Positions 24,109 through 27,716 of a DNA stretch of 28,277 nt are shown here, in pieces; positions within the stretch are counted from its first letter, which is position 1; each line of letters opens with the position of its first letter. The stretch comes from a virus. The DNA lies in the IMG/VR virus record IMGVR_UViG_3300006802_000409, positions 1-28,277 of that record; one strand, given 5' to 3'. The position numbers were made by a program, and so were the translations under genes. The notes beneath the pieces are model-generated. The model was not told the origin of the DNA. It saw nothing but the letters and a program-made list of their open reading frames with translations, and did not search any database.

Positions 24109-24960
24109 TTAAATAATAGATTGAACTTCAGATCGAGTTAACTTTTCCATTTCAGACCACGTTTTTCCGACCTTTATATCGTAGTTATATTTAACTGTCA
24201 ATACATAATCGAAAAGACTTTCAAAATACTTTGGGAATTTTACAAAGCTATCCTCCACAATCTTGAAAAGAAGTTTTATGTTATCGCCACCGTATACCTC
24301 GAAGGCCAGAGAATCGTGAATAGTGTTTACTATTCGTATGGGGTAATCATGCTGACCCTCGAAAGTCTTCAGTATGTCGTCTTGGATAAGGTTTACCACT
24401 ATCGGTACCACTGCACCTGTTGAGAATCCCTGTATGGGGTAGTTCTTCATCTGGGTCAGTGAGAAGTAGGGCTGGCCTCCCTCTGTTACAGTCTTTACAA
24501 ACTTGTAGACCCTGCCAGCAGGATCGTCAAAAGCGATGTACTGACGAGCAGGGTCGGCTTCAGCAATACGCTTAGCCGCCGACAAAGCCTTGTGAAACTC
24601 ATTTACAGCCTCGTACTTCTTGTAAAAAGATTTTATAAAGTCTTGAGCCTCCTTCTCAGGTATAGCAAGCGTCTGTGCCATCTTGGACGCTCCAGCACCA
24701 TACTGGAGTTGGAAAGTCATCACCTTAGCCTTCTTGCGCTCATCTGGAGTAGGTTTACGTCCTAGCCATAGCTTAGCGTTCTCCGTGTGAATATCGACAC
24801 CATTGTCTAGTTCGTTCTTTAGCACGGTATCGTTGGTTATCTCTGCGAGTCCGCACACTTCCAGCTGAGAGAAGTCCATCTCCACCAGGAAGTTTTCCCC
24901 GGTGGATTCGTCAGAAGGCTGCTCAGGCTTGAAGAACTTCTTGATGCTAAAGTCCGACAT
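24109..24960 (-). CDS. Family A DNA polymerase, C-terminal catalytic half (palm/fingers), 283 aa
   Basis: It contains all three polymerase motifs: A (VEMDFSQLEV, Asp29), B (RKKAKVMTFQLQYG, Lys79, Phe83 and Tyr87) and C (IVNTIHDSLAFEV, His215-Asp216). The QYGAGASKMAQTL string continues the O helix. It lacks the thumb and exonuclease region, which are in the separate gene at 25215-26450. In single-chain polymerases the segment before motif A would follow TGR...PNLQN directly; here a new ATG (MSDFSIKKFFKPEQPS) begins after an inserted ORF. The active enzyme presumably reassembles from two chains. Phe83 in the O helix predicts discrimination against dideoxynucleotides. Confidence 0.88.
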   Translation of the reverse strand: MSDFSIKKFFKPEQPSDESTGENFLVEMDFSQLEVCGLAEITNDTVLKNELDNGVDIHTENAKLWLGRKPTPDERKKAKVMTFQLQYGAGASKMAQTLAIPEKEAQDFIKSFYKKYEAVNEFHKALSAAKRIAEADPARQYIAFDDPAGRVYKFVKTVTEGGQPYFSLTQMKNYPIQGFSTGAVVPIVVNLIQDDILKTFEGQHDYPIRIVNTIHDSLAFEVYGGDNIKLLFKIVEDSFVKFPKYFESLFDYVLTVKYNYDIKVGKTWSEMEKLTRSEVQSII

Positions 24961-24961
24961 T

Positions 24962-25213
24962 TTAGTTCACGCTCACCTTTACTCGTTTCTTTGACATTGC
25001 CATAGCAAGCATCTCATCCCACACCTCAACCTTGGCATCGTCTGACATGGCTTCATAAAGCGTCACATGGAACACAGCTGGCATTGTGCCGTAAGCAGCC
25101 TTGAACAGGTTTATGAATTTATCTTCATCCTCGAATTCCTCGAACTTCAGGACAGGGTTAATGTACTCATAAGAATCAGATGCAACGAACTCTTTTTTCT
25201 TAACGTCTTTCAT
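24962..25213 (-). CDS. Small acidic ORF between the two polymerase halves, 83 aa
   Basis: I chose ATG 25213: an ideal GGAGG site lies eight bases upstream, inside the end of the polymerase N-terminal gene. A GTG three codons earlier lacks such spacing. The product is acidic and mostly helical (MKDVKKKEFVASDSYEYINP ... FEEFEDEDKFINLFKAAYG ... VEVWDEMLAMAMSKKRVKVS). It has no polymerase, homing-endonuclease or intein motif. Its stop lies one base before the ATG of the catalytic half. It fills the only gap between the polymerase halves, so it was probably inserted there. Function unknown; a role in joining or regulating the two chains is speculation. Confidence 0.65.
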   Translation of the reverse strand: MKDVKKKEFVASDSYEYINPVLKFEEFEDEDKFINLFKAAYGTMPAVFHVTLYEAMSDDAKVEVWDEMLAMAMSKKRVKVSVN

Positions 25214-25214
25214 G

Positions 25215-26450
25215 TTAGTCACCCTCCACGTTCTGTAAATTAGGCTTGCTTGCTGTTATTCGTCCTGTAGGCGTAGCCGTGTGATTATAGTCACAATGGA
25301 TACGTCCATCCTTGCAGGCAGCAATATAGGGCTCGTAGTACGTCCCTAGCTTCTTGGTTAGCGTGCGGTACTCCCGCAGAGTCTTTGCCAACTCGCTCGC
25401 CTTACCGTAATCGCCCTTGGCAATCTCAGAGAGCGTAGCATCGTCGAGGCTTGTCCTGGTGAAGGGCAGAAAGCCGGGAATCTTGTGAGAGAACCTGACG
25501 GTCTTGTACTTAGGCTCTCCCTTCCTCGCTCCAGTCTTGTAGACACCTGTCACGCCATTGCACGAGACTTCAACATCACCACCAAAGAACACTGCAAGCA
25601 ACTGTGGGTTGCTGTTGCAGTTAGCAGGCTCTACTTGTATTGAGCGTTCCTCCATGGTGTGCAGGAAGTAATCGTCTTCCTCAGCCTGCGGCACCAGGTT
25701 TCCGCTAGTGTGGCTATTGATAACCTCTGCCATGGTGGCCTCAATAGAGTCCTTGAGAGCCTTAACCTGAATAGAGAGTACTTCGCTCTCATCCTTTGCA
25801 CTCACTACGTCAAACGGCATCCCAGTTATGCTCATGCGGATGGTGTTCAACAGGAACCACTGGCGCTGCAGAATAAGGTTAAGCAATGCTTTACCGAAAC
25901 TCTTCAGTACTTCTAGCTGGGTGCTGAATAAAGCCTCCGTTACCAGTAAATCAGAGTTAAGGTATCTCTCCAGCAATTCAGGATTAACCTCAAGAATAGT
26001 CTCAGGGTCAATACCAGCCTTCATCATTTCACTAACTTCATCGTCTTTTGAGACTTGAAGGTTATTGTGAATAGCACTGTCTTTGAGGCTTGGATATTTC
26101 TTTGTCTGACCACTAAGCATGTATTCACATACTGCAGTATCCCAGATAAACAACCTGTGATTATTAAGAACATAATCCCTGAAGTGTTTATCCTGGGAAG
26201 CAGTAACTATAATATCGTAGGATATATTATGCCCTACAAGAGCACGCTCTCCAGCCATTATGTCATCCCGGAACTGGGTAATATCCCTGTATTGCCTGGA
26301 TATAGAATCCTTACGAAGTACACCACCAAGTATAAACTTAGGTGATTGTTTATATATACTAAATTCTTTAGTAATTAAGTTAGTTTCTATATCAATAATA
26401 TTATAATTATTATATATATTATTATATAGATTATTTATATTATATATCAT
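25215..26450 (-). CDS. Family A DNA polymerase, N-terminal half (3'-5' exonuclease, thumb), 411 aa
   Basis: The proofreading exonuclease motifs are intact: Exo I Asp20/Glu22 (IIDIET), Exo II Asp79 (GHNISYD) and Exo III Tyr163/Asp167 (YLNSD). The chain then runs through the thumb and ends HTATPTGRITASKPNLQNVEGD in meaning: TGR at 395-397 and PNLQN at 403-407. A TAA follows exactly where motif A should come next. The first ~17 residues are a Tyr/Asn/Ile-rich low-complexity stretch (MIYNINNLYNNIYNNYN) encoded by almost pure A+T DNA. It would work with the 283-aa catalytic chain encoded downstream. Confidence 0.88.
   Translation of the reverse strand: MIYNINNLYNNIYNNYNIIDIETNLITKEFSIYKQSPKFILGGVLRKDSISRQYRDITQFRDDIMAGERALVGHNISYDIIVTASQDKHFRDYVLNNHRLFIWDTAVCEYMLSGQTKKYPSLKDSAIHNNLQVSKDDEVSEMMKAGIDPETILEVNPELLERYLNSDLLVTEALFSTQLEVLKSFGKALLNLILQRQWFLLNTIRMSITGMPFDVVSAKDESEVLSIQVKALKDSIEATMAEVINSHTSGNLVPQAEEDDYFLHTMEERSIQVEPANCNSNPQLLAVFFGGDVEVSCNGVTGVYKTGARKGEPKYKTVRFSHKIPGFLPFTRTSLDDATLSEIAKGDYGKASELAKTLREYRTLTKKLGTYYEPYIAACKDGRIHCDYNHTATPTGRITASKPNLQNVEGD
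26394..26450. other. Extremely A+T-rich tract at the start of the polymerase gene
   Basis: Between 26394 and 26447 there is a single G and no C; the wider 26341-26460 interval has about 14 G/C in 120 bases. It consists of repeated TATTA/ATATAT blocks. It is coding (polymerase residues 1-19) but the residues look chosen to suit the DNA. An easily melted tract next to helicase and polymerase genes could be a replication origin or unwinding element. Confidence 0.45.
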
Positions 26451-26468
26451 AAGTAATATATTCCTATA

Positions 26469-27716
26469 TCAGTAACCATTACCAGCAGCATAATCGTAGT
26501 ATCTGGCACGGAATCTATCAAGAATTACTATACTCTGCTCATCAGAGGAAGTAACTTTATTCTTCGGAGTATGTATAAATCTCTTATCGTTTTCTGAAGG
26601 TATTCTCCCGATAGTTAATATAATATCTGCTTCACCCTGGGCACCAGTCTTTGACCCGTAGAGCATATTCATCGTAGGGTACATAACACCTTCAGCTGAC
26701 CCATCCAGCTGATTAGTAGCCACTACAGGTGCTACATGCTTGGCTATATCCCTTGCCCAGTTACATAATGCCCTGAATCGTTCAGCGTCATTGCCTTCCT
26801 TGCTTTTAGTTTCCATTCCCCGGATTTTATATAACTGGTCCATGATAATAACCGATGGGCTGTATTTATTAAGTGCAGCCTCTACAACGGAAACATCATC
26901 TGCATCGTCTATATAAACAATTCGACCGTTTGGAACTATTTTCCTGTATTCAAGGTTTGAACCGTTTATATCCTCCAGAATCTCGGATTCATGCTTCCCC
27001 AAGGCAGAGCACCATACGCGGCGCTGGACCTTGGTCATGCTTTCCTCATTGTTGAACCATAACACACACTTCCCCTCGGGTGTCTGACTTGCCCAGTTCC
27101 AAGCGTTATGGGCGAGGAACGTAGTCTTCCCGCCGTCAGGGCGTGCTGCCACGAACACCAGTTCACTAGACAGCCTTCCCAGCATCCTGTCAAGGGTCGG
27201 AAGGCACCATTTCATGCCTGTGTTCGATTTTACGCTTGTGAGCGTCTCTAGGAGGTTTTCCTCTGTACCCGCCACCGTCCTACTCATCGCCCTGGAAAGC
27301 GCCTTAGAATCGCTTATATAGCGTTCTAGGGCATCTTTCACAGCGTCCCACGAGGTAGAGCCTCCCTCGGCTATGTCTAACGCAATTTCGGAGAGTTCGA
27401 CAGCGCGAGCCCTATCCAATAGCAACTGATAAACACTATCATTTGCATCCCCATTGCAATTACCGGATTCAATGAAGTGCCCCATGATTGCATTAAATTC
27501 CCCAATGCTCCCATGGTTACTATGCCGCAACTGAATCCAATTGTGAAAACCTTTCCAATCAATTTCCGAACATCCTTCAGCTGCATAATAATCCCCCAGT
27601 AACTTTATAAGGTCCATGGATTCCTTAGGAAGCATTCCGTTTTTTAATGCTTTCCTGAAGGCTCGATAATCATCGCTATTTGATAGCGTTAATAGAACAC
27701 TTTCGGTAATCGTCAT
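26469..27716 (-). CDS. DnaB-type replicative helicase, 415 aa
   Basis: The C-terminal RecA-like motor domain starts near residue 168 (GMKWCLPTLDRMLGRL). It has Walker A A191-RPDGGKT-198 and Walker B SVIIMD (Asp293), the sensor-like VVATNQLDG, and a C-terminal DRFRARYY arginine region. The N-terminal ~150 residues are helical, as in DnaB primase-interaction domains. It would form a hexamer that unwinds DNA at the phage fork, loaded or primed by the adjacent primase. The Walker A is slightly unusual: ARPDGGKT instead of GxPGxGKT. The ATG overlaps the primase stop (ATGA) and has AGGG upstream. Confidence 0.9.
   Translation of the reverse strand: MTITESVLLTLSNSDDYRAFRKALKNGMLPKESMDLIKLLGDYYAAEGCSEIDWKGFHNWIQLRHSNHGSIGEFNAIMGHFIESGNCNGDANDSVYQLLLDRARAVELSEIALDIAEGGSTSWDAVKDALERYISDSKALSRAMSRTVAGTEENLLETLTSVKSNTGMKWCLPTLDRMLGRLSSELVFVAARPDGGKTTFLAHNAWNWASQTPEGKCVLWFNNEESMTKVQRRVWCSALGKHESEILEDINGSNLEYRKIVPNGRIVYIDDADDVSVVEAALNKYSPSVIIMDQLYKIRGMETKSKEGNDAERFRALCNWARDIAKHVAPVVATNQLDGSAEGVMYPTMNMLYGSKTGAQGEADIILTIGRIPSENDKRFIHTPKNKVTSSDEQSIVILDRFRARYYDYAAGNGY

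Follow-up and report, generated by a model that had tools for sequence, protein, structure and literature searches.

Split family A DNA polymerases have been described in the Methylophilales phages MEP401 and MEP402 (Zobellviridae), in which the split polymerase occupies ORF13/14/15 with a small unknown ORF between the two halves (PMC10580990, 2023). The split and its small ORF also occur in most metagenomic relatives of MEP401/402; the authors suggested an intron and left the question undecided (PMC10580990), and our literature search found no report of the split other than this one. Replication genes split around an inserted gene are further represented by Aeh1 nrdA/mobE, Aeromonas phage 25 43A/43B, and T4 gene 60/mobA (PMC2988022). 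The split NrdA of Aeh1 is active, gp43A and gp43B of Aeromonas phage 25 co-purify with polymerase activity, and homing elements exploit conserved polymerase sequence (PMC2988022). The polymerase of Xanthomonas phage phiL7, also of family A, carries a group I intron with an HNH gene between PNL and QN.

The locus compared here with these systems lies in a 28,277-nucleotide stretch of DNA from a bacterial virus (IMG/VR record IMGVR_UViG_3300006802_000409), which as a whole is called the window. Its relevant features, in the order of transcription, were as follows.

26469..27716, minus strand: replicative helicase of the DnaB type, immediately upstream of the polymerase N chain (PHROG 19).
25215..26450, minus strand: polymerase N chain of 411 aa, comprising the 3′-5′ exonuclease, the thumb, and the first palm strand; ends in PNLQNVEGD.
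25223..25227, minus strand: GGAGG, probable ribosome-binding site of the small gene (from the sequence, 9 bases before ATG 25213).
24962..25213, minus strand: acidic joint gene of 83 aa from ATG 25213, or of 86 aa from GTG 25222 (open reading frame, shuffles, codon usage).
24109..24960, minus strand: polymerase C chain of 283 aa, comprising palm and fingers with motifs A, B, and C (Pfam, PHROG, AlphaFold/Foldseek).

The first-pass annotation had read this region as a polymerase in two chains around a small gene, and the three genes were located as it described. Up to its stop codon, the N chain ends in TGRITASKPNLQNVEGD, and the C chain restarts with MSDFSIKKFF... directly before motif A (DFSQLE). 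The polymerase halves lie 254 bases apart, and the borders of the intervening gene are TAA-C-ATG on the N-chain side and TAA-A-ATG on the C-chain side, leaving a single base between genes at both borders when the ATG start is used, a tightness that is unusual. The GGAGG of the small gene overlaps the last N-chain codons. The claim that the gap holds a real gene was corroborated by dinucleotide shuffling of the joint, in which an ORF of at least 83 aa appeared in 11 of 5000 shuffles, and by a codon-usage score of 0.272, which was near the range of the window genes (mean 0.185, sd 0.074) and exceeded every wrong frame tested (maximum 0.13). The N chain, the small ORF, and the C chain all read as real genes. 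The stretch 26340-26470, comprising the N-chain start (MIYNINNLYNNIYNNYN...) and the gap to the helicase gene, was very AT-rich.

Like MEP401/402, the window has a family A polymerase in two ORFs around a small unknown ORF, with a helicase just upstream and an exonuclease and an endonuclease downstream. In MEP401/402, however, the joint lies about 14 residues nearer to motif A, the enzyme falls on another tree branch, and ORF14 is not detectably related to the small protein of the window. VP41s3 and the ICP2-type phages (Zobellviridae) share with the window the joint PNLQN...stop / MSDIKK... and the helicase-polymerase order, at about 30% identity in both chains. Their joints differ in content from that of the window, with an unrelated 86-aa ORF in VP41s3, an HNH endonuclease in ICP2 and JPW, and an empty joint (9 bases) in ICP2_2013_A_Haiti and Rostov. 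The helicase-then-polymerase order is common to the window, ICP2, VP41s3, and MEP401, and the window has the Zobellviridae-type split polymerase, that is, two genes with the break between PNLQN and the MSDIKK segment, in the gene order helicase, polymerase N, polymerase C, exonuclease, and endonuclease I. The closest relatives of its DnaB-like helicase were those of ICP2-type phages. The window is a further, divergent member of the split group with its own orphan joint gene.

The more distant systems differ in kind. The phiL7 interruption lies only a few residues from the window joint, but it is an intron. The genes-in-pieces systems likewise have an essential replication gene divided into separate chains around an insert, with function shown for nrdA and 43A/B, but they concern different enzymes (gp43 belongs to family B), and the joint gene of the window has no detectable endonuclease domain. 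Contrary to the earlier view, a gene in this position is not out of the ordinary; such genes are common in this phage group and were already published for MEP401/402 (PMC10580990). The comparison with LUZ24 as an intron-interrupted polymerase was also loose; the LUZ24 record lists gp25 as an exonuclease subunit and gp34, eight genes away, as "DNA polymerase part II", the Rfam search found no intron when LUZ24 was used as an intron control, and phiL7 is the better example.

Both chains matched the Pfam family DNA_pol_A (5.7e-14 for the N chain and 3.6e-31 for the C chain), and the profile was divided consecutively between them, with positions 58-131 in the N chain and 140-381 in the C chain. 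PHROG 9556 (N chain) ends and PHROG 2573 (C chain) begins at the joint. The locus thus encodes a family A polymerase with a 3′-5′ exonuclease; neither chain alone contains the whole polymerase domain, which the two make up together. Across the split relatives, the exonuclease residues D20, E22, N75, D79, Y163, and D167 of the N chain and the polymerase residues D29, E34, R75, K79, F83, Y87, H215, and D216 of the C chain were conserved, in agreement with the earlier statement that the active sites are intact. The AlphaFold models had pLDDT values of 85.9 (C chain) and 76.2 (N chain); Foldseek matched the C-chain model to the palm and fingers of Pol I and Pol theta and the N-chain model to the exonuclease and thumb of the T7 and phiVC8 polymerases, so that the two chains appear as complementary parts of one family A polymerase. 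The last 23 residues of the N-chain model, PNLQN included, were at pLDDT <50, which taken by itself weakly suggests a strand that would fold only against the partner chain.

When split relatives were compared in pairs, whether or not they carried inserts, both chains had dN/dS values of 0.03-0.25, indicating strong purifying selection; the window polymerase itself sits on a long branch, with at most 38% identity to any relative. This selection on the relatives and the complementary placement of the predicted structures are in line with the earlier proposal that the enzyme is probably a functional heteromer. We infer that the flanking genes are one replicative polymerase made as two chains, which would be translated separately from one operon via stop-start coupling and then associate into an active enzyme, the primer-gripping strand at the N-chain end (PNLQN) meeting the catalytic palm of the C chain. 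Split genes can mark early decay, and the polymerase could on that account be a decaying pseudogene, or else an assembly artefact. Either is extremely improbable given the intact catalytic motifs, the purifying selection on split relatives, and the retention of the split across very diverse phages. In addition, a second IMG/VR contig, L007, which may share its assembly origin with the window, is identical to it across the region, and a single assembly error is therefore unlikely.

Searches of phage records and IMG/VR yielded 132 public loci with a split polymerase (some of them near-duplicates), which fall into two joint types. In type 1 (54 loci, including the window, ICP2, VP41s3, and many metagenome contigs), the break lies just after PNLQN, and in type 2 (78 loci, MEP401-like), it comes about 14 residues farther on, immediately ahead of motif A. 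When type 1 enzymes were aligned with single-chain relatives, a check that had been proposed, the split proved to be precise and to drop no residue, with PNLQNISN-stop / M-S-D-I-K-K... in split enzymes corresponding to PNLQNIPRGDTSDVKK... in single-chain ones. The split is stable over wide divergence.

The trees, whose deep branches were poorly resolved, placed type 2 alongside HMO-2011-type single-chain enzymes, and type 1 alongside ICP2-type enzymes and the single-chain enzymes of Autographiviridae-like phages. A common origin of both joint types was mildly rejected (AU test, p 0.0285, 40-row tree). Because of this result and the different break points, two separate splits seem likely, if not strongly so. 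Type 1 as one clade was compatible with the AU test (p 0.23). Since the single-chain loci L188, L196, and L198 were placed inside or beside type 1 in a larger tree, the history of this type may have involved one split with later re-fusion, or several splits. While the replication genes of the window, a partial contig, were closest to those of ICP2 types, its major capsid protein (window:3840-4922) was nearest to that of the Anabaena cyanophage A-4L (29%) and to Pelagibacter phage HTVC011P, which indicates a mosaic genome.

The content of the joint varied widely. There was no gene-sized space in 16 of the 54 type 1 loci (-4 to 18 bases), and all of these retained the stop and start codons; the split is therefore independent of an insert. 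The remaining type 1 joints held one to several ORFs in 52 sequence clusters, a number that is an upper bound, as some ORFs may be out-of-frame chance. Besides the HNH endonuclease of ICP2 and JPW, these included a 2OG-Fe(II) oxygenase (L228), a zinc-ribbon-like family (L027, L048, and L241), and many unknowns. Type 2 joints contained, among others, a winged-helix protein (L101 and L105) and, in the L165 group, a protein with a hydrophobic N-terminal stretch. The clearest natural experiment on joint content is provided by L200, L202, and L204, whose C chains are 96-98% identical and whose joints hold no insert, a 91-aa ORF, and a 66-aa ORF, respectively. At the other extreme, the polymerase halves of MW202796 are 3.6 kb and seven genes apart. 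With joint genes variable or absent and the chains under selection, the enzyme is therefore independent of any particular joint gene.

The 83-aa ORF of the window had no Pfam or PHROG match, and no endonuclease domain, such as a homing endonuclease gene in the joint would encode, was detected with either. No relatives were found in phages, plasmids, GTDB genome contigs, or IMG/VR beyond the twin contig L007, and comparison with MEP401 ORF14 and other joint ORFs gave nothing significant (phmmer, HMM). Whether the encoded protein is a subunit or a passenger had been left open by the first-pass annotation; of the two, the passenger is favored, since relatives carry unrelated genes at the joint, and many carry none. 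If the protein were instead a dedicated third subunit, or a regulator bridging or controlling both chains in the window lineage, this would account for the tight packing of the small gene between the halves in one operon, and such a role has a parallel in type 2, where an acidic helical family, that of ORF14, occupies most joints of the MEP401 lineage, evolves under selection (three of four pairs gave a dN/dS of about 0.3), and persists even when relocated, as in L176/L178, where the halves abut and the ORF14-family gene lies upstream of the primase instead (HMM E 7.5e-17). The window ORF, however, did not match the ORF14-family HMM (E 0.24, among 82 sequences), the joint genes of type 1 relatives are unrelated (within the upper bound of 52 clusters) or absent, and near-identical polymerases differ in joint content, making such a role improbable. 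That the protein entered as a passenger and was then taken up by the replication machine as a true third subunit or switch is distinctly improbable as well.

The reading that we prefer, and regard as likely, is a two-chain polymerase that reassembles after translation, with the 83-aa gene as a passenger in a recurrent entry site. By analogy with the joints of other lineages, this gene is probably independent of the enzyme, and in this phage group the joint would be a place where genes are repeatedly gained, lost, and replaced. The joint ORFs of L202, L204, L215, and L220 look mosaic, which suggests recombination inside the joint; the ORFs of L202 and L215 share their beginning, and those of L202 and L204 share most of the last 19 residues.

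A self-splicing intron, removed so that the mature mRNA encodes one chain, was a possibility raised by the MEP401 authors (PMC10580990), and some related polymerases do contain group I introns. The Rfam intron search nevertheless found none at the window joint, even in permissive mode, and none in the ICP2, JPW, VP41s3, MEP401/402, and Haiti loci, while the positive controls, the introns of phiL7 (31.7 bits, E 1.6e-5) and L048 (75.5 bits), were detected. Furthermore, loci with no more than 18 bases between the genes are too tight to hold an intron, yet they still have both the stop and the start codon. An intron at the joint can accordingly be given almost no weight. In L048, the clear group I intron (L048:4482-4743, Rfam RF00028) lies at motif B of the C chain, and this polymerase is in three pieces, combining a joint split that holds two ORFs with the motif B intron. 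A split intein was likewise not found in the window, where the N chain stops and the C chain starts inside a conserved polymerase loop and there is no extra sequence of intein length.

Mobile elements have struck this part of the gene in other polymerases. In L233, an HNH gene homologous to that of phiL7 lies between the polymerase halves at nearly the phiL7 insertion point, and this interruption is likely an intron. The 71-aa joint ORF of L221 resembles the DNA-binding part of the phiL7-intron HNH protein (E 1e-5) and looks like an HNH-like DNA-binding remnant. L094 encodes a single-chain polymerase of 954 aa (L094:2940-5804) whose motif A is the exact site of an intein-like insert (VDF|CVVPGTRIL...EGMLSHNC|SLEV). 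Comparison of JPW with Rostov, whose joint is empty, gave identities of 85% and 72% in the 60-base blocks flanking the HNH insert and of about 90-100% in every remaining 60-base block of the two chains; the drop in identity beside the JPW HNH gene is the footprint expected from co-conversion during homing. The stretch from PNLQN to motif A thus appears to be a repeated target of mobile elements.

On this basis, a mobile element or a small gene probably opened the joint originally by inserting into the conserved sequence between PNLQN and motif A, and this founding insert would later have been lost or replaced; we infer such an original event from the clustering of elements there. A split by simple stop/start mutation, with genes entering later and no founding mobile element, concerns the origin only and is compatible with the two-chain reading. 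It is a reasonable, if less probable, account, as abutting split genes are common and the polymerases of Rostov and Haiti, relatives of ICP2, are already split at the joint that holds the HNH gene in ICP2. On this account, however, it would be a coincidence that one stretch has attracted introns, HNH genes, the remnant of an HNH gene, and an intein-like insert. Either order, insertion first or stop/start mutation first, may have applied.

The split, its conservation, the variability of the joint, and the absence of a detectable intron are all apparent in the sequence comparisons. What is added here to the published cases is that these comparisons argue for the joint as a variable passenger site with no detectable intron in the loci tested, and hence against introns as the answer to the question left by the MEP401/402 paper about its small ORFs, as far as these loci are concerned. 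The polymerase group also constitutes a natural set of split proteins, presumably reassembling, with abutting, gene-bearing, and far-apart versions, which can be used to examine how an essential enzyme copes with being divided. For annotators and pangenome tools, the halves should not be merged, as in the ICP2 record, which joins the two polymerase pieces around the HNH gene, nor should the joint be labeled an intron.

Several joint genes had counterparts elsewhere. A homologue of the L208 joint gene lies in the same contig (L208:41-373), and for the joint genes of L209 and L212, homologues occur in other phages (L198/L199 and L256) at positions other than a joint.
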